Notes under the pieces: generated by a model
What the model was told of the DNA's origin: nothing
What the model saw: only the letters and a program-made list of their open reading frames with translations
Database searches by the model: none
IMG/VR virus record: IMGVR_UViG_3300009034_000017
Span: 1 to 64,000 of that record
Length of the DNA: 64,000 nt
Strand: one strand, 5' to 3'
From: a virus
Made by a program: the position numbers and the translations under genes
Shown here: positions 5,911-38,165 of the stretch, one piece after another
How positions within the stretch are numbered: position 1 is the stretch's first letter
How the letters are laid out: each line of letters opens with the position of its first letter

Positions 5911-6103
5911 ACTCACGCCTATTGAAGTAATGCGGTATATGGGGGGATGGTCTTGTGAGGATTACGCGAATGCGCCCGAATATATCGTAGACCTCGCCAT
6001 TCTTGAAATGAACGCGGAGCGGTGGGCGGCGGAACAACGCCGAGAAAACCAGGGCACAGGCGCTAGGATGGTAGCCCGCCAGGGGAGATACGGCAGATTT
6101 TAG
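5777..6103 (+). CDS. tail assembly chaperone, T part of the frameshifted GT form
   Basis: This frame is offset +1 (equivalently -2) from the gpG-like gene. Downstream of 5888 it reads LTGGKLPPELTPIEVMRYMG, then a helical, charged tail ending at 6103, typical of the T extension. The listed start is only where the frame opens; no ribosome binding site precedes it, so it is expected to be made solely as an extension of the upstream protein, giving a fusion of about 200 residues if the shift occurs at the second G7. Confidence 0.65.
   Translation: MIPTMQTSSPPRYTSSTGGRPRRSANSFFAELKAVMLTGGKLPPELTPIEVMRYMGGWSCEDYANAPEYIVDLAILEMNAERWAAEQRRENQGTGARMVARQGRYGRF
5827..5897 (+). promoter_or_regulatory. 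candidate programmed frameshift region of the tail chaperone gene
   Basis: Within the overlap of the two frames lie C GGG GGG G at 5827-5833, TTT TTT C at 5857-5863 and C GGG GGG G at 5890-5896, all in phase with the upstream frame. Moving into the downstream frame needs a +1 or -2 step. A -2 slip on G-runs is known for the Mu-type G/GT pair; a +1 slip on UUU-C is also possible. The second G7 lies only 12 bp before the zero-frame stop. Confidence 0.5.
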
Positions 6104-6147
6104 TGGGCAGGCGGGGAGCTTGCCCATTGTAATTTAGGAGCAGATTG

Positions 6148-10984: not shown

Positions 10985-10993
10985 GAGGCTAAA

Positions 10994-13846
10994 ATGGCAG
11001 CAAGTTTTCCAGCAACATTATGGACATGGACAGATCAGGTTGACAGCACATCCACGATGGACGCGGCGGATGTCAACGCGCCCTCCGCCGAGATAATAGC
11101 TATGGAGACACACTTCGGCGCAGGTAGCATCGTCGCTGGGCAGATTATCTTGAATTCCGCCGCGGGCGTTGACCCTTGGGTTTCCCTGCAAATCAACAGT
11201 GTGGAGAAGTTCCGCCTCGGGGTTGATGACAGCGACAGCGATAAGCTTAAAATCCATACTGGGGCCTTGGCTGACCCATCATTATGGGAGATGAGTTCAA
11301 CAGGACACATTGAGTTGACCAATGTGGCAGAGACAGCATCTGACCCAGGGCGGCATCTTTACCTACAGCGAACTCACACTGGCGCAGTGGGTTCGGGCAA
11401 GGGTCTGACGGGCGTAGAGGTACGGTCTACCTTTAACGGTAGCGCTGATGCTTTGACCGCAGAAGTTAAGGGTGGCGAGTTCAAGGCCCGGCATACAACT
11501 GGCAACACCTACGATGTGGGAACGTTCAAGGGTGTCATTGGTAATGTGGACGTAAAAAACGGCACTGTTACCACGGGCTGGGCAGTGGAAGGAGCAATTG
11601 ACGTTAGCGCTGGCGGGACATTCACTACAGCAGCTTGTTTCCACGGCAACCTGAACAACAGCGGCACGGTGACCAGTAGCTACGGCGTCTATGTGCATGG
11701 ACTGAGTGGCTATACTCTGACACGCGGCCTATATGTTGATTACGCCACCACGGGCATCTATCTGGATAATTGCACCACCGACATTAGGCTTCAGGACGGC
11801 GCTACGATTGTGAACACTACCACTAACGGGGGCACTTTGACTGTCACCGAGGACAATATAGTACTCGTCGGGGGCGGCTGGGGAAAGATTGCCTTTGGTG
11901 GGTATACCGATTGGGGAACTGGGGCTACTGGCACAGATATTGACGGAACTGGTTACGATTGGGTCACTTCCACGGTCGGACACGTAGATTCCGGCGCACT
12001 TGCTGCAGCTTGTGCCGCCTCATACGATGCTTTGACTATAGTTGCCACGAGTCACTCAACAGCCAGCTCTTTCTTCGGAGTATGGTCTGAGCTGTATATT
12101 AAGAACTCTGTTGACCTAACTAATGCGGCCAATGTCGCTTCGGTGTGGGGTCATGTTGAGGCTGGCACCGGGGTAACGCTTTCAGACTCAGGAGACTTCA
12201 CATGCGGGGTCTATGCCGATATAGTGGCTGGCTCCACACTTACGATTGCTTCTGGGCACTCGTGTAATGGTTTTCGGGCCCAGGCGGAAATTTCGGCAGT
12301 TACCAATAACGGTACACTGGCAGCATTTGAGTGTCTTAAGAATGGTGGAGTAGATTGGGAATACGGTTTGTATATTGCGAATGCCGCCACCGGTATCAAC
12401 ATCACGGCTTGTACGACGGCTGCTATCAACATAGAAACTGCTCAAGTAACCGGTATCAATATTGCTGGGGCGATGACTACCGCAGGCATCAATATAGTTG
12501 GCGGAATTGCTGCTGGCCATGCGATCTTGGTTGGCAGTTCCACTACAGGAATTCAAGTAGACGGCACACCTGATTATGCTGTCGAGGTATATGCAGATGT
12601 TCCGACGGGGGCCCAGAGTCTCGCAAATGTGGGGTCCTTCAACAGCCAGACGACCATCGCCGCCGCCTCGGTTATTACTTCGACCAGCTATATTACCGCT
12701 TCGTACAATCGGATGGAAATTGAAGGTGGCAATACTGACTTAGGCACTCCTTGGGTAACAGCGATACTTGGTTACTTCAAGAATCCTAGCGGCACCTGTG
12801 ATGCTACCTCGGCGACGTGCTCTGCCATCAACGGCTTGGTCAATGTGGGCGCGGATTATACCGATGGTGCTGCATCATGGACTTCTGCCTATGTCGCGGC
12901 CAGTTACAGCAATGCCAGCGCTACTATCCCTAGGTATCCTGCCTACCTCGTCGTAGACCTTGGGCTGAAGGAATTCACTCATGGCTTCTATTGTGCTAAT
13001 GACGCTGCGGCCATTGGGCTTTACGTCGGGACTTGTACAACTGCTATATCATTAGGTGGCACAATAACGACTGGCATTGATTTCGCGAGTACAATCACGG
13101 AGGGTATTGACTTTGGTAGCGCCACTCTCACCTCGGATGCCTCTAGGGAGAATTCCTTTATCAAGTGTGGCACTTATACGACGCAGAAGGAAATGACCCC
13201 GACCGATCAGGCCTATCTCTTCCAGATGAATGTTCAGATTATGGCTGATCTTACTAGCGATAAGAGAGTAATTGGGCATTATAACAAGCTGGAAACTGGC
13301 GCTGCGTTGACAGCCACAAGGCTGAAGGTCAATGAGAACTACTGTGTGGTTGGCCATGCGGTTAAGGATGCCCATGTTGTTTACGGTGAGCTTTACTATG
13401 CTTCAGGCTACACAGAGGGAGGGGTGAGCAACGAGGGCTTCGGCGGTGCGTTCACAGTAGATACCAACGGCGGCTCAACCCCGACAGGGTTGCTTTACGG
13501 GATCAAGGCAAGGATCAAAGGCACCAACCTTAATACCGGTGGCTTTGCCCATTGTGCTGCCTTCTTCGTGACTGAAAATAGCACATTCACTAACACGAGG
13601 TTTACGAATCTTAGTGGCGCGACGATCACGAACATGATTGATTCAAATCAGGCTGGAACGTGTACCAACTTCATCGCGCTGACCGGCGCCTTCACCAACC
13701 TGTGGAACTTTGATGCTGCATCTGGGTTCATTACCTCTGGTGGGACCGACTGTACTGCTTCGGGTGCAACCGATCCCAGTTATACGGCCAAAGTTATCAC
13801 GCCAGATGGCAATGCCGGGTATATCCGTATCTGGGCTGCTGCATAG
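10994..13846 (+). CDS. large repetitive tail fibre
   Basis: A 950-residue Gly/Thr/Ala-rich protein with AGGAGG before its ATG. The N-terminal 90 residues look like a non-repetitive attachment part. The rest is strand-turn repeats, with many TGIxIxxCTTxI-type units around residues 240-260 and 450-520, the pattern of beta-helical or trimeric fibre shafts. No peptidase or lyase motif was seen. It probably forms one of the long side or tip fibres. Confidence 0.65.
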   Translation: MAASFPATLWTWTDQVDSTSTMDAADVNAPSAEIIAMETHFGAGSIVAGQIILNSAAGVDPWVSLQINSVEKFRLGVDDSDSDKLKIHTGALADPSLWEMSSTGHIELTNVAETASDPGRHLYLQRTHTGAVGSGKGLTGVEVRSTFNGSADALTAEVKGGEFKARHTTGNTYDVGTFKGVIGNVDVKNGTVTTGWAVEGAIDVSAGGTFTTAACFHGNLNNSGTVTSSYGVYVHGLSGYTLTRGLYVDYATTGIYLDNCTTDIRLQDGATIVNTTTNGGTLTVTEDNIVLVGGGWGKIAFGGYTDWGTGATGTDIDGTGYDWVTSTVGHVDSGALAAACAASYDALTIVATSHSTASSFFGVWSELYIKNSVDLTNAANVASVWGHVEAGTGVTLSDSGDFTCGVYADIVAGSTLTIASGHSCNGFRAQAEISAVTNNGTLAAFECLKNGGVDWEYGLYIANAATGINITACTTAAINIETAQVTGINIAGAMTTAGINIVGGIAAGHAILVGSSTTGIQVDGTPDYAVEVYADVPTGAQSLANVGSFNSQTTIAAASVITSTSYITASYNRMEIEGGNTDLGTPWVTAILGYFKNPSGTCDATSATCSAINGLVNVGADYTDGAASWTSAYVAASYSNASATIPRYPAYLVVDLGLKEFTHGFYCANDAAAIGLYVGTCTTAISLGGTITTGIDFASTITEGIDFGSATLTSDASRENSFIKCGTYTTQKEMTPTDQAYLFQMNVQIMADLTSDKRVIGHYNKLETGAALTATRLKVNENYCVVGHAVKDAHVVYGELYYASGYTEGGVSNEGFGGAFTVDTNGGSTPTGLLYGIKARIKGTNLNTGGFAHCAAFFVTENSTFTNTRFTNLSGATITNMIDSNQAGTCTNFIALTGAFTNLWNFDAASGFITSGGTDCTASGATDPSYTAKVITPDGNAGYIRIWAAA

Positions 13847-13861
13847 CGAAGGAACTGAAAA

Positions 13862-14209
13862 ATGACAACAGAAAACCAAGATTTTACCATGTGGTCGGGT
13901 GATAGCAAGGTGCTTGAAGTCACCCTCACGGACGTTGATGATGATGCCGTAAACCTCACTGGGGCGAGTATCAGCTACATACTCCAGAAAAGCTCGCAGG
14001 GAGGAGAGGCGATTATATCTAAGTCTGTGGACGATGGCATCTCAATCACCAGCCCAGCGACAGGGGGCCTATTCGAGATCACGATAGACGCGACAGATAC
14101 CGATGACTTAGCAGGCGAGTATTACCACGAGTGCCAGGTGACAGATAGCAGTAGCAACGTCAGCACTGTCTTCGTTGGCACCGTGACCATAAAAGTTGAC
14201 ATGATATGA
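13862..14209 (+). CDS. BppU-like N-terminal domain protein
   Basis: A 115-residue immunoglobulin-like beta protein. The start FTMWSGDSKVLEVTLTD, then VNLTGASISYILQ, and the ending YYHECQVTDSSSNVSTVFVG match the N-terminal domain of baseplate upper proteins (BppU/DUF2479-like), in which GD...L.V.D.dG...dLTGa is diagnostic. Here it is a separate gene. Its TGA overlaps the next ATG (ATGA). Confidence 0.6.
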   Translation: MTTENQDFTMWSGDSKVLEVTLTDVDDDAVNLTGASISYILQKSSQGGEAIISKSVDDGISITSPATGGLFEITIDATDTDDLAGEYYHECQVTDSSSNVSTVFVGTVTIKVDMI

Positions 14210-14640
14210 GTTGCGTATCGCTAACCGGCACGTTTGTGACTTCCGTGCCACTGGTCGGTACATTTATTATCTCTGTGCCGCTGGCTGGCACGTTTGTCAC
14301 TCCCGTCTCATCAACTGGCACATTTATCGCCCCTGTGTCATTGACCGGTGCGTTTATTACCCCTGTGTCATTGACTGGCACATCCATCATTCCCATATCA
14401 TTGACCAGCACGGTTATCATTCCCGTGTCATTGACTGGCACATCTATTATCCCTATATCACTAACTGGCACGGCTATCACTCCTGTGTCGTTAACTGGTA
14501 CGTCTATCATTCCCGTATCACTGACTAGCACATCTATACTTTCTGTTTCCCTCAGCGGCGACGTGTGCATATTCCGCGAGGCGGGCAAGCTTGACTTTTC
14601 AGACAAATATCAATCGGGCTGGCTGTGGTACATCGCATAA
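14206..14640 (+). CDS. decapeptide-repeat protein (SLTGTxIxPV)
   Basis: Of 144 residues, about 110 are roughly eleven copies of a ten-residue unit, SLTGTxIxPV, encoded by a 30 bp DNA repeat. The unit alternates Thr/Ser turns with beta-branched strands, suggesting a narrow beta-solenoid or fibre shaft. A short unique tail (from SLSGDVCIFREAGKLDFSD to WLWYIA) follows. It is translated in overlap with the BppU-like gene, so it may be a shaft attached to the baseplate. The function is inferred from context only. Confidence 0.6.
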   Translation: MSCVSLTGTFVTSVPLVGTFIISVPLAGTFVTPVSSTGTFIAPVSLTGAFITPVSLTGTSIIPISLTSTVIIPVSLTGTSIIPISLTGTAITPVSLTGTSIIPVSLTSTSILSVSLSGDVCIFREAGKLDFSDKYQSGWLWYIA

Positions 14641-14652
14641 TGGAGGTTTAAT

Positions 14653-16752
14653 ATGGCAAACTTAAAAGTCCTAGATGGGGATGCGGCTGCTAAGTATTTA
14701 AGTACGGATGGTGCTGGGACAGATGCTGACCCGCACGTTTCCCACCATGTTCTTGATGCAAACACGGACGGGGTGTATATCGGTGACATCAAGTTTGGGG
14801 AGGGCCTGCCTGCCAATTCTGGTGTTGATATTGGTGATGTGACTATCAATAATGTTGCCGGATCGGGAGTGTATGTTCAGCCAGGAACTTCTGCCACTTG
14901 GGATGTTTCAGACAGAGCAGCTAGATTAGTTGGGCAAGTCTATGGTTCACAAAGTGCAGTTTTACAACAGAAAGTCACGACCAATGATTTAATTGTTACT
15001 TTGGATGGGGAAACCGTATCCGTAACCGAAAGCAGCCCAATATCAGGATTTGCAACTTCAGCCAAACAGTTGGCAGATGGACATAACGTCACTGTAGACA
15101 ACGCTGCTGGGGCCGCGGCGGTTAATATCCAAGATGGCGGAAATACAATTACGGTTGACGGAACTGTTGCTGCCACGCAATCTGGCACTTGGAATGTCGG
15201 AACTGTCACTACCGTGACTGGTGTGACCACTGTTTCAACATTGACCACAATTACCAATCCCGTCGGCATTAAAAACGCTGCCGCGGATACGGTAACAGGC
15301 ATCTCAGGAACTTATGATACCATTGATGTGTCATTGACTAATGGGACTTACAGGGCGATTATAGATTCAAGTGGATACTTGACTACTAATATCAACGGCA
15401 CTATCACAGTTGATGGCTCTGTAACCGCAGACACAGAATTGCCTGCTGCCGCAGCGTTAAGCGATGCTCTTGCCAATCCGACCACTTCCATGATCGGCGC
15501 GGCTTTGCTGGGCTACGATAACACAAATAGCCAATGGGAAAGATTGCGCACCAATGATTCGGGAGTCTTAAGGATTGTCGGCAATGGCACTGCTGGTTCC
15601 GCCGATGCCGCCGTGGTTACTGTCCAAGGCGTTGCTTCGGCTACGCCAGTTATAGTTACAGGCGATTCGGCGGGCTCGCTTACCGTTGACCAAGCCACGG
15701 CTGCTAATTTGAAGGCCACCATATATGGGGCTGGATCAGCGGGCAGCGCTGACGCTGGGGTTATGACAATTCAAGGCATCGCTTCAATGACTCCTATTCT
15801 TGCCACTCTACAAGCCAGCGATGGTACGGACATCGGAAACGTGGATGTGGCTTCCGTGATTCCGGGGACTGGGGCTACCAATCTCGGCAAGGCAGAGGAT
15901 GCCCAGCACGCCTCGGGTGATGTGGGGGTAATGATGCTGGCAGTCAGGAATGATACTCTCGCCACCTTGGTCGCGACCGACGGCGATTATGCACCCTTAC
16001 AGGTCGACGCTTCGGGGGCCTTGTATGTCAATCTTTCCGGTGAAGGAATTGACATGGACATTGAGGGTGTGGCTGCTGAAGATGCGAATGCTGCTGGGAA
16101 TCCAGTATTGATCGGCGGCAGATATGATGCTACCCCCAGGACATTGGATGATACTGATGTGGGGGCCATTGCCCTAGATGCTGATGGCGCGGTTCATATT
16201 TCCGATGGGGGGAACACGATAACGGTAGATGGGACGGTGACAGCAACCCCGTCAGGGATTCAGGAAATTGAGGGCGATGAGGCCGAGGGTTCTGGCAACC
16301 TTCCCCAGCCAGTACTGATCGGCGGGGACGACGGCACAGACATCAAAAACATCAGCGTTGACGCAACCACTGGTGACGTTCAGGTTGATGTGACCAACCA
16401 AGTGGATGTAGGAGGGGCTACTCCAGTCGTTACCCCCGTCACAGGCAATGCTAGTCCTTTCAGTACCAGCTATGCGCCTTCCGCCGATTTCTGGCTGGAA
16501 TCAATCACCTTGCACCTGTCAGCGGCAGGCACGACCAGTGAGGCTTTCACTGTTACTTTGAATGCTACTGATGGGGGTGTCTATGACACGGTGTTATTCA
16601 GTCAGGATTTAAGCAAGGGAGCTGTCACCGATCTCGTATGGGTGCCCGAGGGCGGGCCGATGCTATTTGAGAACGGCGATGCGATTGACGTGGCTTGGAA
16701 CAACGCCGAGGGTCGCACCTATGGGCTACGGGCGGTGACGCGGCTGGCATAG
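14653..16752 (+). CDS. large tail fibre / structural protein
   Basis: A 699-residue protein with GGAGG before the ATG. Repeated short modules occur, such as NIQDGGNTITVDGTV (near 155 and 515), GSADAxVxTxQGxAS (twice near 310 and 365) and EDANAAGNPVLIGG/EAEGSGNLPQPVLIGG. The C-terminal 110 residues are non-repetitive (SPFSTSYAPSADFWLESITL) and resemble a terminal jelly-roll head. It is probably a fibre or virion surface protein; no enzymatic motif was seen. Confidence 0.6.
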   Translation: MANLKVLDGDAAAKYLSTDGAGTDADPHVSHHVLDANTDGVYIGDIKFGEGLPANSGVDIGDVTINNVAGSGVYVQPGTSATWDVSDRAARLVGQVYGSQSAVLQQKVTTNDLIVTLDGETVSVTESSPISGFATSAKQLADGHNVTVDNAAGAAAVNIQDGGNTITVDGTVAATQSGTWNVGTVTTVTGVTTVSTLTTITNPVGIKNAAADTVTGISGTYDTIDVSLTNGTYRAIIDSSGYLTTNINGTITVDGSVTADTELPAAAALSDALANPTTSMIGAALLGYDNTNSQWERLRTNDSGVLRIVGNGTAGSADAAVVTVQGVASATPVIVTGDSAGSLTVDQATAANLKATIYGAGSAGSADAGVMTIQGIASMTPILATLQASDGTDIGNVDVASVIPGTGATNLGKAEDAQHASGDVGVMMLAVRNDTLATLVATDGDYAPLQVDASGALYVNLSGEGIDMDIEGVAAEDANAAGNPVLIGGRYDATPRTLDDTDVGAIALDADGAVHISDGGNTITVDGTVTATPSGIQEIEGDEAEGSGNLPQPVLIGGDDGTDIKNISVDATTGDVQVDVTNQVDVGGATPVVTPVTGNASPFSTSYAPSADFWLESITLHLSAAGTTSEAFTVTLNATDGGVYDTVLFSQDLSKGAVTDLVWVPEGGPMLFENGDAIDVAWNNAEGRTYGLRAVTRLA

Positions 16753-16778
16753 CGGAGGATTAACATAAGGAGGTTGAC

Positions 16779-18914
16779 ATGGGATTGACACTTAATGGTA
16801 GAAAGGTGCTGGATCGTACCCTGTTGCGCGGCCAAGAATTCATCTTGGACGCTGATGAGGATTCGTCTTTAACGGCAGACACGGACGACCAGCTTGACTT
16901 GCGGCTGGGCGGCAATGACGTGTTCGTGTTCAAAACATCGGAACTGGATATAAGTGGCGTTAATATCGTCAACTGTGGCGACATCGCGTTGGATTCCATT
17001 AGTGACGACGACGGTACAGGCATTAATATCGCCATGATGGATGCCAGTGCAACCGCCCTTACTATCAAGGAAGCCACCACCGCCTACTTGACATTTGACA
17101 CCTCCAATGGCACAGAGAATATCATCCTAGGCAAGAAACTGACTGGGGGCGCGGTTGAAATAGAGGGTTCGGCATTTGACATAAACGGGGGCACAGTAGA
17201 CGGCATAACCTCTCTGACTGTAGGGACAGATGGAAGCGGCGCTGACGTTTACTTCTATTCGGCTACGGGAGGCGACCACCTGTTTTGGGACTCGTCTGAG
17301 GAACTGCTCACCATCACGGGAACGAACGGGCAGATGGCCCTTAATGTGGCTGATGGCAACGTGATAATAGTGGATACCCTCTACCTTTTCGATGCAGGTG
17401 GCGAATCCCTGTCCAGTGACGGCACAGACCTTACAATAGCTTCAGGCGCACTCATCAATCTCACTGCTACATCAGACATCGTTATCCCTGTCAATATCGG
17501 GCTTATTTTTGGCGATGGTGCCGAAAAGATTGAAAGTAACAATACTGATTTTACCATCAATAGTGGAGGAGAACTGAACCTTACGGCTACAAGTGACGTT
17601 GTGATTCCAGTCAATGTAGGGCTTCATCTAGGAGACGGGGCAGAGAAGTTAGAGAGTAATAATACAGATTTAACGATCAACTCTGGCGTAGATATTAACC
17701 TGACTGCAACGACCGACATCAATGTGCCCGCAAACGTGGGGATGACTTTCGGAGATGATGGGGAAAAGATTGAGGGAGATGGCACCGACCTGACCATAGC
17801 ATCCAGTGGCATGCTGAACCTAAATGCAACGAGCGGGATTGCCATAAATGGGCCCCTCACGATAACTCCAGGGGTAGCGGGAACGTTCCTCGACTTTGAG
17901 CTAGAGACTGAGTGGGTGAGTGGCACACTTATCAGAGCGGACTTTGGTGGTGCAACAACTCTAAATAATGATACTGTTGTTGTTGGCCTAGACTTTAACT
18001 CAAACGTCAGCCTTACTACTGACAAAGACCTGACGGGCTATCAAATCAAGCTACCGGCCTTCACCCAAAGCGCGGCCAACACTACAACTATCATGGGATT
18101 TAACTTGCCGACTGCGGGGGCATTAGTACAGGACACTGCTGCTGGCACGCTTGCTTGGAAGGGCATCAATATCCAGATGCCCAATATCACTCAAACCACA
18201 GGAACCGTAACCTCAACAGGCATTACAATCACTGGCGGGACGGTAGCTTCGGGAACATCCTACGGTTTGATAATTGATGCCAATGCTGGCAACGTCGGCA
18301 TCGGGATGGCGGGGCCAAGCAAGAAACTGGAGGTCTACGATGGGGAATTTGCCCTTTCCAACACAGCTGTTGATCATAGCGTCACCGATAAGGCGACAGC
18401 GAACATACATTGTCTTATGGAAATAACGAGTGCAAGTTATGGCGGGACAATAATATCTGGCATCACCGATGGGCCTACGATTCCGCTCATCTTGAGAGGC
18501 ATACACGGCGAAGCAGACCCTACCGACACGCTTGAGGCGGTCAGGATTCAGGCGATGAAATATGATGGTGGAACGGGTATTACTGCCGTAGGTGCCGCAG
18601 AAGAAGTATTCCAAATGTTTAACAACACAACCTCTCTGTTGACAGTTTTGGGAAGCGGCAACGTCGGCATCAACATCGCCGCGTCGCTTCTCGGCAAGCT
18701 CCACATTGACCAATCAAGTACCTCGGCGGCAATTCCTCCACTCGTTCTTGACCAAGCGGATCTCAGTGAGGAGCTTATCAAATTCATCACGACCATTGGC
18801 GTGGGGAATCCCATAGAAGCCATTGGCGGGAAAACCTTGACGACGACACACTTCATCAGGGTTGAAATTCCTGGCCCGGCGTATGTGTATATCCCGGCTG
18901 GAACGATTGCATAA
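16779..18914 (+). CDS. large repetitive tail fibre
   Basis: A 711-residue acidic protein. The middle (roughly residues 200-360) has four repeats of about 44 residues built from GDGAEKIESNNTDLTINSG, LNLTATSDVVIPVNVGL. Downstream repeats (GLDFNSNVSL, ITGGTVASGTSYGLIID, GNVGIG) are like the shaft-to-tip region of other phage fibres and end in a short unique tail. Well-placed AAGGAGG precedes the ATG. Confidence 0.6.
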   Translation: MGLTLNGRKVLDRTLLRGQEFILDADEDSSLTADTDDQLDLRLGGNDVFVFKTSELDISGVNIVNCGDIALDSISDDDGTGINIAMMDASATALTIKEATTAYLTFDTSNGTENIILGKKLTGGAVEIEGSAFDINGGTVDGITSLTVGTDGSGADVYFYSATGGDHLFWDSSEELLTITGTNGQMALNVADGNVIIVDTLYLFDAGGESLSSDGTDLTIASGALINLTATSDIVIPVNIGLIFGDGAEKIESNNTDFTINSGGELNLTATSDVVIPVNVGLHLGDGAEKLESNNTDLTINSGVDINLTATTDINVPANVGMTFGDDGEKIEGDGTDLTIASSGMLNLNATSGIAINGPLTITPGVAGTFLDFELETEWVSGTLIRADFGGATTLNNDTVVVGLDFNSNVSLTTDKDLTGYQIKLPAFTQSAANTTTIMGFNLPTAGALVQDTAAGTLAWKGINIQMPNITQTTGTVTSTGITITGGTVASGTSYGLIIDANAGNVGIGMAGPSKKLEVYDGEFALSNTAVDHSVTDKATANIHCLMEITSASYGGTIISGITDGPTIPLILRGIHGEADPTDTLEAVRIQAMKYDGGTGITAVGAAEEVFQMFNNTTSLLTVLGSGNVGINIAASLLGKLHIDQSSTSAAIPPLVLDQADLSEELIKFITTIGVGNPIEAIGGKTLTTTHFIRVEIPGPAYVYIPAGTIA

Positions 18915-18925
18915 GGAGGTAAAGT

Positions 18926-19180
18926 ATGGCTTTCACACCAGAACAACCAAAAACACCAGCGTCCATCGGCGACATCAGCATCGTGCTTACCGATTATGCT
19001 GACATAGAGGAACTAGATACTGCCGATTATGAAATCCAAGTATTGCAGGCAGATGGCTCACTATTCCACTTGGCAAGCGGCAACCTTGTACCCCACCTGA
19101 CAGCGGGGCAAATCAGCACATTGCAGGCTTTCATAGCAGACATGAGGGCTAAAGCCATAGCGGAAATCCTTGGGGAATAA
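18926..19180 (+). CDS. small conserved-type protein after the fibre genes
   Basis: An 84-residue protein with AAGGAGG before its ATG. The pattern SIGDISIVLTDYADI...YEIQVLQADGS...GNLVPHLTAGQI...LQAFIADMRAKA is one seen in small proteins that end phage tail-fibre operons; their function is unknown. It may help fold or attach fibres. Confidence 0.65.
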   Translation: MAFTPEQPKTPASIGDISIVLTDYADIEELDTADYEIQVLQADGSLFHLASGNLVPHLTAGQISTLQAFIADMRAKAIAEILGE

Positions 19181-23030: not shown

Positions 23031-23831
23031 TTAAATCGTGAACAGCGGTGGGTTGGCTTGCCTCACCCGCAACCGTGCCAGCCCCACATATTCTTCTGAT
23101 ATGTCAAAGCCTATCCATAGGCGGCCTAACTGCTTTGCCATCTTTAAGGTAGTGCCTGAGCCACAGAGAGGATCTAAAACCACGTCGCCAGGATTTGACC
23201 AACTCAGGATGTGGTCACGGGCCAGGGCCTCAGGGAATGGGGCAGGATGATCTGTTCTATCACTTCTATTAGTTGGGTGAATAGTCCATACGTTGGTACG
23301 AAATCCAAATCTGGGAGTGATTATGTTTTTCCTCATCACCCGCGTACCCATCCCTGATGCCTTCGGGGTAGGGTTATTTACCTGTCCCGCCTTTTTGTTT
23401 TTCCTGTCTTTAAGCCGATTGACAGTTTTTGGCCTGCCCCTTGAAAGTACAAACATATACTCAAATGCTTGCCAATAAGCATAATTGCTACCCTTGGCCC
23501 CTGTGCCATCTACGTGGTAGATCATTGTGTCATGCAGCTTAAAACCCAACCCCATGAATCTCAGTGCCTGCCTGAAGCTTGTCCCTGTTTCTGATCCATT
23601 TACCGTTGCATCACCCACTACCCATACTACTATACCACCTTGCTTCGTCACCCTGAACAACTCGGCGGCTATCGGCCTAAAGTCAAAGATATAACCCTTG
23701 TAATCTCGGAGATTGTCATAGGGAGGCGAAGTCACAGTCAAGTCTATGCAGGCATCAGGCAACTTTATCAAGAGATCTTTGGCATTGCCAGCATAGATTT
23801 GATTTAATTTATAGGGGCCTAGTGAATCCAT
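23031..23831 (-). CDS. DNA methyltransferase, TSPPY type (orphan)
   Basis: A 266-residue amino-methyltransferase. Catalytic motif TSPPY is near residue 34 and the AdoMet-binding motif DPLCGSGTTL near 223, the beta-class order (catalytic motif first); SPPY favours N4-cytosine. The start reads LGPYKLNQIYAGNAKDLL and the end RVRQANPPLFTI. Both ends are shared with the decayed copy at 33610-34065. The middle, about 110-200, is the likely target recognition part. No restriction enzyme adjoins it. Confidence 0.85.
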   Translation of the reverse strand: MDSLGPYKLNQIYAGNAKDLLIKLPDACIDLTVTSPPYDNLRDYKGYIFDFRPIAAELFRVTKQGGIVVWVVGDATVNGSETGTSFRQALRFMGLGFKLHDTMIYHVDGTGAKGSNYAYWQAFEYMFVLSRGRPKTVNRLKDRKNKKAGQVNNPTPKASGMGTRVMRKNIITPRFGFRTNVWTIHPTNRSDRTDHPAPFPEALARDHILSWSNPGDVVLDPLCGSGTTLKMAKQLGRLWIGFDISEEYVGLARLRVRQANPPLFTI

Positions 23832-25005: not shown

Positions 25006-27657
25006 CTAATAGTACACTATGTGGATATTATCATACTCATTCTCGCGACACCAAGCCATGGCTGTCCAGAAAAACTGGTGGACAAATACTTTGGAGTCGC
25101 GTGTTTTGCGCAACTCTTTGCTAAAAGGCAGGCCAAGCGGCGGCCTCGCATTCCGCGCAGCTCGTGCCAAGCTAGTATGTGGATTATATTCTACCCGCTC
25201 ATGCCAAAGACGAAGCTGCTGATCCATCCCCTCCAACAGCCATTCGCCAATGTCTGCCTCTGGGGGCGGAGGGCTGGGCGTTTCCTCATCCGAAAGGTGG
25301 GCATGGGGATAGTAGAACTTCAGAATCTCACGCCATGACTTGCCTTGCTCGGCGGAGACTTTGGCGCCATACTGACACATCCGCCCAGGCCATTGTTTTC
25401 CATCATGCCCTGGCCGACCCTCGCAGTATGGACATGGCCCCAAACCACACTTGGAAATGTACTGGGCTTGGATAACCTTGTTGCTTGCGTCAAGCAAGTG
25501 GATACCCCTCGTCTCCGTGACTGCCCGAATGCTCTTATCCGTGATGTTTGACTCCCTGTACTGCTGACAGCAAGTTTCGGTACAAAGGTCTGCGCCCTGT
25601 GATGGATGCTTGCCACCATGTTCTCGATGGTACATTACATACGCACGGGCAGCAACTGCCTGAACCTTAAGGGCTTCAAGCAGCCAGCTACAGTACATCT
25701 CTGAACACACCACGCCTCCCAAGTAAGCTTCCACATCCATGGTTTGAACTGGGAGACCAGGAAGGTCTCTACGCCAAATTCTTGCTTGCATTCCGTCACC
25801 TCCGTTAAATATCCAATTTGTTGGTACTTCAAATTGCCTCTTTGTTGCATCTCGCAAAGCCCCGATGAGCTTCGGCTTGTTGTAATAGTTAAAGTGATCA
25901 TTTTCTGGGCCCCAGTTCCACATGAAGAGAGTCCCTCCCAAAACGTAAGGAAACTCGGACTCCAATATGTTGAACCATTCAATGATGTCTTGGGCCGTCC
26001 CCTCTGGTTGAACATTGGTCGGCCCGCACTCCGATATGAATATGTACTTATCAGGGAATAACTTGTGATGCCAGAGCATCCGGCGTCCAAACCAAGGCTC
26101 AAAGCGCTCAGGATGTCGCGAAGGCCAGTAGACATGCTGATCTAGGATGTCGCAAGCCGCAATGGCATCCCGACAGTATTCTAAGCCTGGCGGATCCATT
26201 GCGGGATCTATCCCCTCACGCATGAGTTCCATGAGCTCCTTGTCTTTCCTACCAAGGCCCCTTCTTACAATGAGTTCCTCTAGCCAAGTATCAACTATCA
26301 TCTTCCTCAGAGGGTAATCAATTACGTCAGGATCATCCCCCACTCCAGGAGACACTGCCGGGAAGTGCAGTATCACCTCGGGCAGATTTTGCCTGACTAC
26401 CTCGGCTGTCTTTAGGACCCATTCGTTCATCTTCTTCCAAGAATCTGGATTCTGTGCTTCAAATGGCCCCTCGATATTCAACTCGTTTCCTATGACCAAG
26501 TGCTTCGTTTTGTCTAAGAACTGTATGGCGTGGTCGCAAGCCTGTTGCGCGATTACCACGGGGTCGGTTGCTAGCCCCCCTGTGAAGTATGGTCGTAGGA
26601 GAATAAGAGCATTGGGTCGAGCCGCGCGAATCTGGCTGACTTGCTCCCATTTATCGACTACTGTGTAACAATCCATTCCCAATGAAACCATGCTGCTTAT
26701 ATTCGTGGGGTCTTTATTCGGCCCATGCATCCCCCACTTACAGTATGTCTTTGTCACTTCGTCAGGCGGCGGGGGATCCTCGGTATCCAAATTCAGAATC
26801 TCAATGACGTACTCGATAGGCGAGTAACATGTGACCATATCTGATCCCGCGAAAAGCAGGCCCACTATCTTTCGGCCCATATCCAATAACACCGAACCAG
26901 AGTCTCCCCCTTTGGACATGCACCCAGTTATAATCTGATCGTGGAACATAGCCACTTGATTGCCGGAATAGGCTACCTGAACCGTAACGCCTATTTGTTG
27001 AACGGTGCCCGTGGTTACGCCTGTTGTTCGCCCTGATTTTTGAACCGCCATTCCTAATTGCACTTCACCATACCCAGCGGGTTCCCCGATCCCCAAAATT
27101 TCACTGCTTACATCTTTCTGATAATCAGGCCAAGCAATGGCGCAGTCAACATAGTTTGGCTCACCTGCAAAATTGATGGATCTGAAATCCGCAAGATCGC
27201 CAATCCTGTCATCAACGGCCCCACCGTCTGCAGTCCCTGGCTGTAAAATGGTGTCCCCCAATCGGCCTATGTTGCAATCGGCAAGTACATGATTGTTGGA
27301 TAGGATGCACCAGCCCTGTTCACCCTTAACCCGCACGCGGCAGCCCAGCGTTCCGGCACTGACCTGATAGTGACCAATTGATACCCCGCCCGGTGCTGGC
27401 CGCCATTTGTCGGCCCGGGACTGAAGTGCCACGATCTTGCCGACCTCAATCACGTCAGTCTCTAGGTTTGTGAGGCTGGATATTTTGTGCCAAGGCCAGA
27501 TGAGGCGCTGCTTCTTCTCAACTCCCACTATTATGCATTTTCGATCAAGTTGCTTCCCGTTCTTGACCTTGTATCCCCATCCCACACTGACCACTCCGGG
27601 AACGGAGAATAGCTTGGCTAGTAGCTTGGCCTGTATAGATAATCTACTCTTTCTCAT
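25006..27657 (-). CDS. serine protease / glycosidase-like / SpoIID three-part fusion protein
   Basis: An 883-residue protein. Residues about 90-290 are a trypsin-like protease with an intact triad: H123 (SNNHVLA), D171 (VDCAIAW) and S253 (GGDSGSVLL). After a Pro-rich linker, 305-610 look like a TIM-barrel glycosidase of the clan-A type, with the proton-donor motif GNELNIE (E392) and the nucleophile motif ISECGPT (E543). Residues 640-780 match SpoIID, the septal lytic transglycosylase domain: DVEAYLGGVVCSEMYCSW (E653) and ALKVQAVAARAYVMYH, then RMCQYGA. A Pro-rich linker and about 85 residues of unknown fold end it. No signal peptide is visible. GGAGG precedes the ATG. Cell-wall degradation with self- or partner-processing is inferred. 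Confidence 0.75.
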   Translation of the reverse strand: MRKSRLSIQAKLLAKLFSVPGVVSVGWGYKVKNGKQLDRKCIIVGVEKKQRLIWPWHKISSLTNLETDVIEVGKIVALQSRADKWRPAPGGVSIGHYQVSAGTLGCRVRVKGEQGWCILSNNHVLADCNIGRLGDTILQPGTADGGAVDDRIGDLADFRSINFAGEPNYVDCAIAWPDYQKDVSSEILGIGEPAGYGEVQLGMAVQKSGRTTGVTTGTVQQIGVTVQVAYSGNQVAMFHDQIITGCMSKGGDSGSVLLDMGRKIVGLLFAGSDMVTCYSPIEYVIEILNLDTEDPPPPDEVTKTYCKWGMHGPNKDPTNISSMVSLGMDCYTVVDKWEQVSQIRAARPNALILLRPYFTGGLATDPVVIAQQACDHAIQFLDKTKHLVIGNELNIEGPFEAQNPDSWKKMNEWVLKTAEVVRQNLPEVILHFPAVSPGVGDDPDVIDYPLRKMIVDTWLEELIVRRGLGRKDKELMELMREGIDPAMDPPGLEYCRDAIAACDILDQHVYWPSRHPERFEPWFGRRMLWHHKLFPDKYIFISECGPTNVQPEGTAQDIIEWFNILESEFPYVLGGTLFMWNWGPENDHFNYYNKPKLIGALRDATKRQFEVPTNWIFNGGDGMQARIWRRDLPGLPVQTMDVEAYLGGVVCSEMYCSWLLEALKVQAVAARAYVMYHREHGGKHPSQGADLCTETCCQQYRESNITDKSIRAVTETRGIHLLDASNKVIQAQYISKCGLGPCPYCEGRPGHDGKQWPGRMCQYGAKVSAEQGKSWREILKFYYPHAHLSDEETPSPPPPEADIGEWLLEGMDQQLRLWHERVEYNPHTSLARAARNARPPLGLPFSKELRKTRDSKVFVHQFFWTAMAWCRENEYDNIHIVYY

Positions 27658-27682: not shown

Positions 27683-28345
27683 TCACAATAGAGTTAACTG
27701 AGAACGCCTCAATCTGTCTTGGCCGATTCTGTCAAGGCTCATTTTGACATAATCAGGATTGATGTCGCAGCCAAAGAACTTGCGGTCTAGGCGGTCGGCG
27801 GCTACAGCGGTTGTGCCGCTGCCTATAAAGGGATCAAAAATTAAGGCGCTTGGATCAGACAAATTCTCAATTAAATGGGTGGCCCAAGTCATATTCTGAG
27901 CCCACGGATGTTTTGTCTGATCTGGCGACCGTGTTCGGGGGATGCCGTCACACATAACTTTGTGTGTTGCCTTGCCCTTGCGGAAGTACAAGATAGGCTT
28001 CCATGTTACCATAAAATTTACACCAAACAATCGAGGATAGCTACGATTTTCCAGAGACCCCATCCAGTGATAATCAAGGTGCGGACACATCAATGACAAT
28101 ACCTCTGGTATTTGATAGTGCCCACAGAGGGTAACAAGCCATGATTTGTCTTTCATTACCCGTTGCCCACCAATAGCCAAGTTCCCAAATAGCAAAAGAG
28201 ACTCTCGTTTATAGGGCGGATCAGTCACCACCAAGTCTACACACCCATCAGGCATAGCGGCCATTACTTCCAAGCAATCACCGCAGACTATATCGCCCCG
28301 AACCTCCCCGCTTAACACTCTCTCAAATCTCTGTGCAAAGCCCAT
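27683..28345 (-). CDS. DNA methyltransferase, TDPPY type (orphan)
   Basis: A 220-residue beta-class amino-methyltransferase with TDPPY (near 41) and FDPFIGSGTTAVAADRL. The N-terminal GDIVCGDCLEVM and the C-terminal FGCDINPDYVKMSLDRI, RSQLTLL are nearly the same as in the genes at 31793 and 37234, while the middle differs. DPPY favours N6-adenine (also N4-cytosine in some). No adjacent endonuclease. The small middle suggests a short recognition sequence. Confidence 0.85.
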   Translation of the reverse strand: MGFAQRFERVLSGEVRGDIVCGDCLEVMAAMPDGCVDLVVTDPPYKRESLLLFGNLAIGGQRVMKDKSWLVTLCGHYQIPEVLSLMCPHLDYHWMGSLENRSYPRLFGVNFMVTWKPILYFRKGKATHKVMCDGIPRTRSPDQTKHPWAQNMTWATHLIENLSDPSALIFDPFIGSGTTAVAADRLDRKFFGCDINPDYVKMSLDRIGQDRLRRSQLTLL

Positions 28346-28666: not shown

Positions 28667-28858
28667 TCACAAAGATAGCCCCAGAAGCCAGCGACCCAGT
28701 GTGTAGGCAACGATGAGTAGAACTATAAACACTACAACAAACTCAACCCAGCGCGGATTTCTATTGACTGTATCCAATACCCACATTAGGAATAGCACAA
28801 ACGCAGTCCCTGCCAGTAAAGCACATATCCCCAACACTAGATACCTAAGATGCTCCAT
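28667..28858 (-). CDS. small membrane protein with two transmembrane segments
   Basis: A 63-residue protein: LGICALLAGTAFVLFLMWVL and VEFVVVFIVLLIVAYTLGRW are two clear membrane helices joined by a short charged loop, with both ends probably on the same side. The gene follows a hairpin-rich leader (28885-28990). Role unknown. Confidence 0.65.
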   Translation of the reverse strand: MEHLRYLVLGICALLAGTAFVLFLMWVLDTVNRNPRWVEFVVVFIVLLIVAYTLGRWLLGLSL

Positions 28859-31206: not shown

Positions 31207-31494
31207 CTACTGGTAGCAATCCTTCTTTTGCACAGCCAGCTTATAGGCACCCGTCGTGCCAAGAACCGCGCCCAGAACCGAGAAGACGAACTGCACAACA
31301 GCTACGACGTAGGATGTCGTCTCAGGCCAGTAGTACATAACTCCCACTAGGGCCGCCCAGACTATGCCCAGCACTAAGTTGGCCTGCTTGGCCGCGTTCT
31401 CACTATTGATGATCCCCCAATTCTTGAGCGCCTCGATGATAAGCGCGGCAAGGGCACCAAAAGCAACTGTGCCGATCACTGGTAGCCAATCCAT
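31207..31494 (-). CDS. holin-like membrane protein
   Basis: A 95-residue protein. WLPVIGTVAFGALAALIIEAL and LVLGIVWAALVGVMYYW, then VVAVVQFVFSVLGAVLGTTGA are three membrane segments; a charged tail (KLAVQKKDC) follows. Size and layout fit a phage holin that would release lytic enzymes, but the muramidase gene is 24 kb away and the nearest wall-active gene is the double-psi barrel protein at 32778. AAGGAGGTGAG precedes the ATG. Confidence 0.55.
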   Translation of the reverse strand: MDWLPVIGTVAFGALAALIIEALKNWGIINSENAAKQANLVLGIVWAALVGVMYYWPETTSYVVAVVQFVFSVLGAVLGTTGAYKLAVQKKDCYQ

Positions 31495-31792: not shown

Positions 31793-32554
31793 TTACAATA
31801 GCTCCAATTGTGCACGGCTCTCTCTATCTCGCCGCAGTCTTTCTAGGGCCATCCTGACATAGCTGGGGTTGATGTCGCAGCCGAAGAAGCGGCGGCCTAG
31901 TCGGTCGGCGGCTACGGCGGTGGTGCCGCTACCAATAAAGGGGTCAAATAGAAGCTCACAGGGCATACCATCCAGCAGTTCAAGTATTAGGCTAATCGGC
32001 TTTTGTGGTTCTATCAGCCGTTCTTTGGAAGGTACGGGCTTGCATTTCAAAACATCGGGTTTGTTGTTGCGTCTATCTAGGGGCGGGGCACCATGGCCGC
32101 GGAGGTATAGTATCAACTCAAACTGTTTGCGGAAATCAGTGCCAAAGCCTATTCGCCCTTTGTCCCACACTAGAAGCTGTTGATACCATCGTTCATAAGT
32201 CGCAGCAAATAATACTGGGTAGAAATTCGCATCGCAAAACACAAACAGGCGGCCCGTGGGCTTGGTTACTCTCTCAAGCTCTGCGAATACAAGGGACATT
32301 TGGCACGAGGATGCTGAAAAATCCCCAAGGTTACGGATTAGCTTGCGTGAAGCCGCTGTATAAACTGGCAGGGTAAACAGCGGATCCGTCACCACCAAAT
32401 CCACACACTCATCCGGCATCTGCCCCATCACTTCTAGGCAGTCGCCCGCCACTATTGTGTTTTCCGAATAAGGCCCCAAATCAATCAGGTGCTGCTGCCC
32501 CTTAACAAAACCTTGGCTATATCGCTCGGTATTTCTGCATTGCTTCCTGAACAT
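31793..32554 (-). CDS. DNA methyltransferase-like protein with altered DPLF motif
   Basis: A 253-residue beta-class methyltransferase relative. The N-terminal LGPYSENTIVAGDCLEVMGQ and the C-terminal FDPFIGSGTTAVAADRLGRRF, RMALERLRRDR are family-typical, but the catalytic motif reads TDPLF, not DPPF/DPPY. The second proline is normally invariant, so activity is doubtful. The gene overlaps the upstream one by 38 bp. Its conserved ends match the genes at 27683 and 37234. Confidence 0.75.
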   Translation of the reverse strand: MFRKQCRNTERYSQGFVKGQQHLIDLGPYSENTIVAGDCLEVMGQMPDECVDLVVTDPLFTLPVYTAASRKLIRNLGDFSASSCQMSLVFAELERVTKPTGRLFVFCDANFYPVLFAATYERWYQQLLVWDKGRIGFGTDFRKQFELILYLRGHGAPPLDRRNNKPDVLKCKPVPSKERLIEPQKPISLILELLDGMPCELLFDPFIGSGTTAVAADRLGRRFFGCDINPSYVRMALERLRRDRESRAQLELL

Positions 32555-32777: not shown

Positions 32778-33332
32778 TTAATCACCCAACAATAAAGATT
32801 CGGCAGAGCCCCAATCAATTTCTAAAAGCAATTGGACCCTTCCTTTTGCCCCCTCTGCCTTTCTTGTCTTCATAATCCTCACCGAAACTTCACAGATTCC
32901 CAACCGATCTCGCATCGCGGAAGAACCCGCAAGGGCGGCAAACGCTGCTGGCCAGAGATCAAAATCAACTGGCGCGTCCCAGGGCAATCGGTCAATGACC
33001 GTAACGGTGACGGTGTTTCCAATGAGATCGTTCAGTTCGGGCTTGGCCCATTTTGGCAGGTCGGTGATTCGCAACTCCAATCGGGCGCAAAACGGGATGG
33101 CCCGAGACCGAGTGGCCGCGCCGAAATGAGAATCATCTACCGTCTCCGGGAACCCGGGACACGTCTGCCCCCACCACGAAGCGGCGTGGCGTTTGCCCAA
33201 GTAGCCGTCAGTCGTTGTGCCGTAGTAGGTACAGAGGCCATCTTCTATTTCGGGATTATCTGCAAATGTTAAAGTTGGCCCCAATATTGCCATCACTAAG
33301 GTGATGGCTAGGGCTTGTATCAGTGGTTTCAA
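32778..33332 (-). CDS. secreted double-psi beta-barrel (RlpA-like) protein
   Basis: A 184-residue protein using TTG at 33332, whose last bases form the TGA of the upstream gene (TTGA), the usual coupling pattern here; an ATG far upstream would overlap that gene entirely. Residues 1-22 are a signal peptide (LIQALAITLVMAILGPTLTFA, cut before DNPE). The mature part has YYGTTTDGYLGKRHAASWWG, CARLELRI and VTVTVIDRLPWDAPVDFDLW, the RlpA/expansin-like barrel that binds or cleaves peptidoglycan, with the conserved aspartate in the ID motif. It may help wall lysis together with the holin-like protein. Confidence 0.65.
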   Translation of the reverse strand: MKPLIQALAITLVMAILGPTLTFADNPEIEDGLCTYYGTTTDGYLGKRHAASWWGQTCPGFPETVDDSHFGAATRSRAIPFCARLELRITDLPKWAKPELNDLIGNTVTVTVIDRLPWDAPVDFDLWPAAFAALAGSSAMRDRLGICEVSVRIMKTRKAEGAKGRVQLLLEIDWGSAESLLLGD

Positions 33333-33592
33333 GATTGTTCCCGAAGCGCTTGCAGCACCGCCGGTGGCGGGGCAACCACTTCCCCTTCGTCTATTCCTGC
33401 AAGCGCCTCCGCAGCCGCGTCCGATATTGTACGCAAGGTCAGCCAAGCGGCTACCCACCCAGCACCGCCATCTTCAAGTTCTACAATCAATAACCGCTTT
33501 TGTTCTTCAGGTAATTTGCCCACAAACTTTGCCCCGGCCTCAAGCCCGCCCCTTGCTATTGCGTTCCCGAATTCTTCTAGTGTGTTACTCAT
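33329..33592 (-). CDS. hypothetical protein with HTH-like C-terminal helix
   Basis: An 87-residue protein starting MSNTLEEFGNAIARGGLEAG; ATG 33592 is preceded by AGAAGGAGA. The ending AVLQALREQS repeats the last helix of the ATPase-associated helix-turn-helix encoded near 34078-34240 in the shifted frame (TVLQALREQ). It overlaps the barrel gene through TTGA. Unknown function. Confidence 0.6.
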   Translation of the reverse strand: MSNTLEEFGNAIARGGLEAGAKFVGKLPEEQKRLLIVELEDGGAGWVAAWLTLRTISDAAAEALAGIDEGEVVAPPPAVLQALREQS

Positions 33593-33609: not shown

Positions 33610-34065
33610 ATTGTCGGATTGCAAACAGCGGCGGGTTGGCTTGGCTCACTCGCACAAGTAAAGCATTGTATCTAAAAGGTTGAATCCACATACTTCAACA
33701 AAGTATATGGCTTGCTTGAAACTTGTCAGGCTCTCACAAAAGTTCTTCGTTGCATCGCCCACCACCCACACTACTGTGCCGCCGGGCCGCGCTGCCCTGA
33801 ATAATTCAGAGGCTATCGATTTGAATCGAAAAGAGTAACCTTTGTAGTCTCGGAGATCGTCATAGAGGGGCGAAGTCACAGTTAGGTCTATGCAAGCTTC
33901 GGGCAGCTCTGCCAAAAGGTCTTTTGCATCCCCTGCGATGATGCTATTCAACTTATACGGCCCTGGGGCGCTTCTCAACTTGGGGCGGGGCACATCTTCT
34001 AGCCCCCTACTCATAGCATGGCAGGCATCTAACTTCTGATCACAAATGTCGGCTGCGTCTCTCAT
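33610..34065 (-). pseudogene. DNA methyltransferase remnant with internal deletion
   Basis: The frame starting at 34065 reads a fused leader (MRDAADICDQKLDAC...), then GPYKLNSIIAGDAKDLLAEL, TSPLYDDLRDYKGY and VVWVVGDATKN, closely matching the first 100 residues of the methyltransferase at 23031, but stops at 33646. Just beyond, in another frame, RVSQANPPLFAI (about 33615-33650) is the last part of the same protein. About 120 codons including the AdoMet motif are missing. The catalytic motif is also altered (SPLY). It is a dead copy, although its start is still coupled to the ATPase gene. Confidence 0.75.
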
Positions 34066-35230: not shown

Positions 35231-36271
35231 TCAGATACCTAACCCCATCTGCGCTCTTTGTTCACGGTCTCTTGCCAAGCGGGCAAGGGCAAGGCTTACT
35301 GCTTCAGGATTAATGTCACAACCAAAATATCTGCGCCCCAGCTTGGCTGCTACAGCTAACGTTGTTCCACTGCCGCAGAAGAAATCGGCGACCAGGTCGC
35401 CTTCGTTGGAGGAGGCCTGGATGGTGCGTTCCAGCAGGGCTTCGGGTTTTTGAGTGGGGTAATTCAATCGTTCTATGGCTTGAGAATTGAGTGGATAGAT
35501 ATCATTCCATATTGTTTGAACCCTTTTACCCTTATCTGGGTCCAGATACTGTATTAACCGGGGTGTACCTTCAGAGGTAAATACGATTTTACTCTCAGCC
35601 CAAAGCTTGTCAATGGTAGCTTGAGAATATTTCCAGGCATTGCCATCGGGATAGTATTGTTTACCATTAATAACTCGCAATTCCTTGTTACCTGTTTTCG
35701 CGCTCATACTGATAAGTTGATAATGCCTACCATACTCATCAGTTTTTGAATAATGGGATTTCAAATACTTCTCAGATTGATCCATATATGCATCATTCCA
35801 AGTATAGGTTTCTGCTTTTGTGTAAAAGAAAATCGTGTCATGGATATTACCAAAGCGGTTAGCATCGCTGTGCGCCCAGATGCGTCGCCAAACTATTTCA
35901 TTTCTGAATCGGTCTGCCCCAAATATTTCTGTTAATATGCTGCGTATGTAATTATTCACCCTCCAGTCACAATGCACATAAATACTTCCATCCTCAGCCA
36001 GCAGATCCCGCATCAACACCAGCCGCTCGTGCATAAAATAGAGATAATGTGCAAGCCGCCTCCTTTTCTTGATGTTTTGAACACATTGCCCAAAATATTC
36101 ATCAAACCACCGTAAGTGCTCTTCAGTTGCGTTCCAATATAAGCCAAGCTGTTTATCAACGGCATTATCACCAAAGGGTGGGTCTATATAAATCAAATTC
36201 ACTGCCTCGCTTGGCATTTCAGCCATTATCTGTAAACAGTCACCATGCACTACTCGGTTGATAAAGTCCAT
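35231..36271 (-). CDS. DNA methyltransferase, IDPPF type (orphan)
   Basis: A 346-residue beta-class methyltransferase closest in layout to the Mod subunits of type III systems: IDPPFG near 29, a long middle (YLYFMHERLVLMRDLLAEDGSIYVHCDW), NYPTQKPEALLERTI and FFCGSGTTLAVAAKLGRRYFGCDINPEAVSLAL at the C-terminus. No Res-type helicase or nuclease is present. It probably methylates adenine. Its N-terminus does not share the LGPY start of the paralogs, but GDCLQIMAEMPSEAVNL is related. Confidence 0.86.
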   Translation of the reverse strand: MDFINRVVHGDCLQIMAEMPSEAVNLIYIDPPFGDNAVDKQLGLYWNATEEHLRWFDEYFGQCVQNIKKRRRLAHYLYFMHERLVLMRDLLAEDGSIYVHCDWRVNNYIRSILTEIFGADRFRNEIVWRRIWAHSDANRFGNIHDTIFFYTKAETYTWNDAYMDQSEKYLKSHYSKTDEYGRHYQLISMSAKTGNKELRVINGKQYYPDGNAWKYSQATIDKLWAESKIVFTSEGTPRLIQYLDPDKGKRVQTIWNDIYPLNSQAIERLNYPTQKPEALLERTIQASSNEGDLVADFFCGSGTTLAVAAKLGRRYFGCDINPEAVSLALARLARDREQRAQMGLGI

Positions 36272-37233: not shown

Positions 37234-38154
37234 TCAAATGCCTTCAAGCGCTAATTGAGAGCGCTTCAATCTGTCTTGTCTGATTCTGTCAAGGCTCATT
37301 TTGACGTACTGAGGGTTGATGTCACAGCCGAAGAAGCGGCGACCTAGCCGGTCGGCGGCCACGGCAGTTGTACCGCTGCCTATGAACGGGTCAAAGACAA
37401 TTGGCTCTGGCAGGTCTTGGGTATTGGCCCGATGGACGAACAGCTGGATCAATCTTGATGGCAATTCCAGAGGGAAAGTGGCAGGGTGCTCCTTGGCCGA
37501 TACAGGCGGGAGAAACCACACATCCTTTGTCTCCTCCAAGAAAGGCACAGCTTCTTTGCCGCGCCGACCTGTCCCTCCATCGTGATACCAACGGCCCTTT
37601 GAGCCCAGCAGGATGATTTCATGGGCGGGCCTCATATATGGGTCACTGTCACAGCCCATTCGGTAATCTGAGCATATCGCGTTGCCCTCGCTACCCTTAA
37701 CCCAGATTATAGGCTCACGCATTTTGAAGCCGATTCGCTCCATTTGCCCAAACACCCGAAAGCCTAGCGGCTCTATTCGTCCCTTGCCTCTCTGATTGTG
37801 TTGGCTACCCACATGGGTCAGGTACTCCGGGTCGTAATCTGACCATGTATCTCTGTAAGTGTGATCCCGTTGCCAACGGACTACCAAGGGGACATTCAGG
37901 GCTATTACTCCGCCAGGTCGCAATATCCGATAGCAACCCTGAAGTGCGCTGTCAATCAATTGATACCAGTCTTGCCACGGTAGCTGGTCATCGGAGACCC
38001 CGTAGGCCATTCGACAATTGTAGGGTGGGCTTGTCACCACTAAATCCACACACTCGTCTGGCATCTGCCCCATCACTTTTAGGCAGTCGCCACAAACTAT
38101 ATCCCCCTGAGCCTCCCTGCCCAAAACCTTTTCAAATCTCTGTGCAAAGTCCAT
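37234..38154 (-). CDS. DNA methyltransferase, TSPPY type (orphan)
   Basis: A 306-residue beta-class methyltransferase with TSPPYN (near 41), RILRPGGVIALNVP, HPATFPLELPSRLI and FDPFIGSGTTAVAADRLGR. SPPY favours N4-cytosine. The N-terminus (DFAQRFEKVLGREAQGDIVC) and C-terminus (KMSLDRIRQDRLKRSQLALE) are those of the genes at 27683 and 31793; the 150 middle residues are unique. ATG 38154 has GAGGGATTGA upstream. The XPF-type nuclease gene adjoins it, but I see no proof of a restriction pair. Confidence 0.86.
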   Translation of the reverse strand: MDFAQRFEKVLGREAQGDIVCGDCLKVMGQMPDECVDLVVTSPPYNCRMAYGVSDDQLPWQDWYQLIDSALQGCYRILRPGGVIALNVPLVVRWQRDHTYRDTWSDYDPEYLTHVGSQHNQRGKGRIEPLGFRVFGQMERIGFKMREPIIWVKGSEGNAICSDYRMGCDSDPYMRPAHEIILLGSKGRWYHDGGTGRRGKEAVPFLEETKDVWFLPPVSAKEHPATFPLELPSRLIQLFVHRANTQDLPEPIVFDPFIGSGTTAVAADRLGRRFFGCDINPQYVKMSLDRIRQDRLKRSQLALEGI

Positions 38155-38165
38155 AATCAATCCCT

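Follow-up and report, generated by a model that had tools for sequence, protein, structure and literature searches.

SpoIID is known from spore engulfment. In the C. difficile enzyme, E101 and C140 are required for activity, and the protein alone fails on intact peptidoglycan, on which a prior amidase cut is required (PMC6221140). The Waddlia SpoIID is active on intact sacculi (PMC6635528). Phages with spoIID homologues were noted earlier, and an endolysin role was suggested (PMC10294663). Furthermore, SpoIID-type domains are listed in the polyvalent proteins of phages; for these, as for lysozyme domains, a role at entry was proposed (PMC5512222). Among the glycosidase domains of metagenomic endolysins, PF11790 was remarked on as unusual (PMC5968864). 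No report of a fusion between an endolysin and a trypsin-type protease, and no description of a phage function for a protease of the NAL1 type, was found in the literature searched; the main text of two large endolysin surveys mentions neither "trypsin" nor "SpoII."

The protein analyzed here is a probable lysin of 883 residues, in which a serine protease, a GH-A-like part, a SpoIID domain and a tail follow each other. Its gene lies at positions 25006 to 27657 on the minus strand of the window, by which we mean the whole stretch of 64,000 nucleotides that was analyzed (bases 1 to 64000 of a viral record of 74,956 bases, in which the gene matches once). It is a single uninterrupted frame with no stops. 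A strong Shine-Dalgarno sequence (AGGAGG) is located 8 nt 5′ of the ATG, and a second ribosome site, which overlaps the stop codon, precedes the next small gene. GC content by codon position follows one and the same pattern throughout the four segments of the frame, which argues against an assembly join of two genes. Given this uniformity, the single frame and module borders that fall at Pro-rich linkers, such a join, which the initial annotation had named as a possible flaw, was ruled out. All residues listed in that annotation (H123, D171, S253, E392, E543, E653 and MCQYGA at 760) were verified in place, and its core observation of protease and SpoIID domains in one gene is confirmed, the barrel between them being probable only.

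Since the gene begins 25 nt behind a DNA methyltransferase gene, it looks like a member of an operon. By eye, at least seven DNA methyltransferase-like genes with D/SPPY and FDPFxGSGTT motifs, one of them a short copy, were recognized (23031-23831, 27683-28345, 31793-32554, 33646-34065, 35231-36271, 37234-38160 and 44138-44887 in the window), which is unusually many for a record of 75 kb.

Residues 1 to 291 (26785-27657, minus strand) match the PHROG family 20754, "protease" (phrog_20754; E 2.8e-57). In Pfam, the match to Trypsin_2 is weak (E 0.003) and falls short of the cut-off; a relative in the uncultured phage contig L046 exceeds the Pfam Trypsin cut-off. A His-Asp-Ser triad with GDSG is present, and H123, D171 and S253 are invariant in 22 of 22 aligned family members. 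The AlphaFold model, with pLDDT above 90 over most of residues 81 to 290, predicts the double-barrel trypsin fold. Its best solved match in Foldseek was rice NARROW LEAF 1 (NAL1; 8hau, E 4.8e-17), followed by streptogrisin and alpha-lytic-type proteases (TMt 0.73 to 0.81; 0.80 for 2sfa). In line with this, NAL1 and streptogrisin were also matched in the profile search. We conclude that the trypsin-type protease with an intact triad, as first proposed, is real and by fold and triad belongs to the NAL1/streptogrisin type (PF13365, PF00089, phrog_20754); proteolytic activity is predicted from the model. In contrast to the known proteases of this type, it is joined to wall-hydrolase modules.

Relatives of the protease were found in Aeropyrum coil-shaped virus, a 484-kb metagenomic phage, bacterial plasmids and 35 IMG/VR contigs, and a VGVGxGxK region at the N terminus is common to phage and plasmid members. 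Most phage members stand alone with approximately 330 residues, and some adjoin tail genes. On bacterial plasmids, family members fused to a DNA/RNA non-specific endonuclease were observed (L014, 2896-4794, from a Tsukamurella plasmid; also Streptomyces and Rhizobium plasmids).

Residues 637 to 783 (25309-25749, minus strand) constitute a compact SpoIID lytic transglycosylase domain. This part is matched by PF08486 (E 6e-20; 72 bits, three times the cut-off of 23) and by TIGR02669 (E 2e-32; 113 against a cut-off of 83), and no PHROG family matched it convincingly. The model, with pLDDT of about 65 to 94, was matched by Foldseek to 5i1t (E 3.1e-6). When aligned to C. difficile SpoIID (5i1t/5txu), E653 corresponds to the catalytic E101, C692 to C140, C696 to H145 and C697 to C146. 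Thus, of the zinc site C140/H145/C146, a feature of C. difficile that is not universal, two ligands are retained as C692 and C697, whereas H145 is replaced by C696. The fold and the C-terminal (M/S)QYGA-type motif are those of the SpoIID/LytB family (C. difficile and B. anthracis structures 5i1t, 5txu and 4rwr), but the stretch before QYGA is shortened and a membrane anchor is lacking. In the shortened form, a Cys-rich loop, KCGLxxCPxC, takes the place of the long region before the motif; here it is seen as an extra Cys cluster, KCGLGPCPYC, at residue 736, and the same compact form is common to the phage contigs L003, L060 and L061. The SpoIID domain noted at the outset with E653 and MCQYGA is therefore real, both in its fold and in its catalytic Glu, and from the sequence we predict glycan cleavage.

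Between these two domains, the assignment is more guarded. A Pro-rich linker, TEDPPPPDE, at residues 292 to 300 (26758-26784, minus strand), where model confidence collapses, leads into a part of residues ~305 to 610 (25828-26745, minus strand) for which no Pfam, NCBIfam or PDB sequence match was found. It contains GNELN (with E392 as putative acid/base), HVYW at 508 and SECG (with E543 as putative nucleophile), in the order of clan GH-A. This motif order and spacing arose in approximately 1 of 6,000 to 10,000 shuffles (1.7e-4 for the spacing pattern, a post hoc value), and the His-to-Glu spacing is alike in the 883-residue protein, L060, L064 and L003. Scored with a profile of the three other phage GH-like domains, in contrast, this domain ranked 55 of 2001 among shuffles, which is not significant, and hhalign against such domains was weak (P 0.011). 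The models show alternating strands and helices with pLDDT mostly below 50. After SpoIID matches, Foldseek listed GH128 (probability 0.98, E 0.06) and then GH2, GH26 and GH5 among others, mostly of clan GH-A, all for this low-confidence region. The GH128 (Glyco_hydro_cc, PF11790) match covers the half with strands 6 to 8, and E392 and E543 fit the strand 4 and strand 7 positions of the Glu residues in that family. However, at E <= 10 the PF11790 profile matched neither this record nor the related ones, and the substrate of GH128 is beta-1,3-glucan. A search for further relatives retrieved only the two already known. Nothing in BFVD was matched at E <= 0.001, which may be due to the poor quality of half of the model used. 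Of the proposed TIM barrel, the motifs and GH-A fold matches were thus recovered, but no sequence match and no significant profile score; since the model is of low confidence, we regard a (beta/alpha)8 glycosidase of clan GH-A as quite likely rather than demonstrated.

The C-terminal residues 784 to 883 (25009-25308, minus strand) comprise another Pro-rich linker, TPSPPPPEA, and a mostly helical tail. As already noted from the sequence, the last ~85 residues lack a known match: no relative among all fetched ORFs, no Pfam match and no recognized wall-binding domain was found. The tail could be a wall-binding part.

We compared this arrangement to those of other phages. Two uncultured phage contigs, L046 and L048, carry within a lysis cassette a wall hydrolase whose N-terminal part is the same protease (phrog_291, endolysin; E 5e-29). 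There, the protease is followed by GH25 and two SH3 domains, where the 883-residue protein has GH-A-like, SpoIID and unmatched tail parts. In L046 (5893-7866; the same position in L048), the start of the fusion is overlapped by a gene for a holin-like protein with two transmembrane (TM) segments, and direct reading showed a tail-fibre assembly gene upstream and an M23-like sequence downstream. With L046/L048, a protease is seen joined to a lysin a second time, and independently, among uncultured phages. In another case, L041, the protease is fused to a C-terminal extension of unmatched sequence.

The other half of the protein also recurs. Four other distinct phage proteins (L003/4/5, L060, L063 and L064) show the same order of a GH-like part and a compact or full SpoIID domain, with ~41 to 47% identity over SpoIID and similar acid/base and nucleophile motifs, but they have no protease, their GH sequence is hardly alignable and their tails are different. 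Their genes are located after tail-type genes, and the L060 copy adjoins a holin-like gene for a 2-TM protein. In gut phages, SpoIID is fused to Amidase_2 and LysM in an endolysin whose gene immediately follows a holin-like TM gene (L069-L074 and L079, from 4938) or, in another form, to PG_binding_1 with a weak NlpC/P60 match. The former combines, in a single chain, the amidase and SpoIID activities, which sporulating cells divide between SpoIIP and SpoIID.

The initial annotation knew of no characterized phage protein with this order. This holds for the full three-part order, of which whole-protein and domain scans of viral and genome contigs revealed no second copy at the sensitivity used (single-protein scans pick up close relatives only), but not for its pairs, since GH-like plus SpoIID recurs. 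A match in a genome contig was an ordinary Prochlorococcus SpoIID without the architecture. A Paenibacillus "family 10 glycosylhydrolase" with SpoIID is no close parallel, because it has 1,895 residues, another domain order and a place in an amino-sugar operon. The 883-residue protein is thus built of shuffled modules, all of them seen elsewhere in lysin-like proteins.

The tail block of the virus (tape measure, baseplate hub) occupies 817-19180 on the plus strand, and the 883-residue gene lies ~6 kb beyond it on the opposite strand. Within the plus-strand part, the frame at 14206-14640 encodes a protein built of TGTFI(T/I)PVSL repeats, and the opposite strand is likewise open there over a long stretch. 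The gene had been called early-strand and outside the tail operon; its location outside the tail block was confirmed, but the label "early" is not established, because the same strand also bears a GH25 endolysin gene with a TM segment (55362-56249, minus strand; phrog_291 endolysin, 8e-45). Two genes for holin-like proteins with two TM segments each are located upstream on the same strand, ~1.0 kb (63 residues; 28667-28858, minus strand; Phage_holin_3_6, E 5e-5, below the curated cut-off) and ~3.5 kb away (95 residues; 31207-31494, minus strand). The latter protein has 39% identity over 44 residues to the 2-TM protein encoded next to the L060 GH-SpoIID gene (pairwise E 0.001). Both are set apart from the 883-residue gene by other genes, and no holin match above the curated cut-off was obtained. 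The minus strand further carries a gene for a TM-anchored protein with a weak DPBB/RlpA-like profile match (32778-33458). RlpA acts on denuded glycan, and the phage may therefore hold two enzymes with this preference. No amidase was found in the scanned genes of the virus. Since no terminase, portal or capsid gene was recognized among the scanned genes of the record, the latter is probably incomplete.

Taken together, we consider the 883-residue protein to be an endolysin-type phage lysin of modular build, with a probability of roughly 0.68; it is perhaps a second lysin of this phage, beside the GH25 lysin. It would be synthesized in the cytoplasm, since no signal peptide or TM segment was found in it, and would reach the wall through a holin lesion; we infer this route, and the timing of action, from the context. 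There, SpoIID would cleave the MurNAc-GlcNAc backbone via E653 as a lytic transglycosylase, and the GH-A-like domain would probably attack another glycan bond or else a polysaccharide of the wall. Judged by sequence and fold, SpoIID with its catalytic Glu would be the peptidoglycan-cleaving catalytic domain expected of an endolysin. The protease and SpoIID folds, the protease-GH25-SH3 fusions and the GH-like plus SpoIID proteins support this reading, and the context argues for it because the same protease and SpoIID modules recur in lysin-like proteins beside holin-like genes. The suggested cutting of the wall by two catalytic parts is thus well supported by analogy to unrelated phages. Action from inside the cell fits well, given the lack of signal and TM segments, the two holin-like genes upstream and the location outside the tail block, while the suggested modification of the host surface gained no specific support. 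Against an endolysin stand the GH25 lysin candidate in the same phage, the operon with a DNA methyltransferase and without a holin directly beside the gene, the amidase requirement of C. difficile SpoIID in a virus with no amidase among the scanned genes, the lack of a recognized wall-binding domain and the weak matches of the GH part.

The N-terminal protease would be an added module with one of two targets: proteins or peptides in the envelope, or the Pro-rich linkers within its own chain. Proteolytic release of parts is possible, and a cut in envelope protein or in peptide bridges would agree with the data just as well. That the protease releases or activates separate wall hydrolases is a tentative idea. 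Pro-rich linkers are indeed found at the protease/GH and SpoIID/tail borders, and by general reasoning a cell would tolerate a cytoplasmic protease only if its specificity is narrow, but no cleavage site is predictable from the sequence, GH-SpoIID proteins of other phages do without a protease, and most protease-family members, standing alone, have nothing to release. Similarly doubtful is a protease that is itself lytic, with wall protein or peptide bridges as its target; proteases that share its fold and are bacteriolytic include the alpha-lytic and Lysobacter lytic enzymes. Such an activity would complement the two glycan-cutting parts, the L046 protease-GH25 fusion follows the same logic, and alpha-lytic protease and the Lysobacter L1/L5 lytic endopeptidases are among the Foldseek and profile neighbors. 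However, the nearest fold, NAL1, is that of a regulatory protease of plants that is not known to be lytic, and because the fold is widespread, this resemblance says little about the substrate.

Two further explanations depart from an endolysin. The protein could be packaged in the virion and open the wall locally, its protease cutting surface (S-layer) protein at entry. The archaeal host of Aeropyrum coil-shaped virus has no peptidoglycan, and a family member in this virus would suit such a role, as would the stand-alone proteases encoded next to tail genes in L026 and L037 and the unmatched C-terminal extension in L041. The entry role proposed for the lysozyme and SpoIID-type domains of polyvalent proteins (PMC5512222) points in the same direction. 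We nevertheless find a virion-associated lysin unlikely, since the gene is not encoded in the plus-strand tail module and its closest fused relatives, in L046 and L048, sit in the holin-endolysin position. Even less probable is an early intracellular protein for host takeover or conflict, whose wall domains only bind or are inactive: the operon with a DNA methyltransferase and the plasmid-borne relatives, which stand alone or are fused to DNA/RNA nucleases, would agree with it, but the catalytic Glu and Cys ligands of SpoIID are kept, the modules keep lytic company elsewhere, and the same strand holds the GH25, DPBB-like and holin-like genes.

One may speculate, with considerable reserve, that a widespread class of lysins has gone unrecognized, in which a NAL1-type protease is a third working part that opens proteinaceous layers or peptide bridges, in addition to two glycan-cutting domains, one of them SpoIID. 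Of the members found to date, the 883-residue protein would then be the most elaborate. A lysin that has both a protease and SpoIID would imply that, on some hosts, phages have protein or peptide layers to breach as well. The protease family occurs in 35 records of viral contigs, an archaeal virus among them, which raises the question of what the phage NAL1-type protease cuts. The same virus has a second serine protease gene (L008, 7511-8386; 67510-68385 of the record), which is HtrA-like and matches other families.
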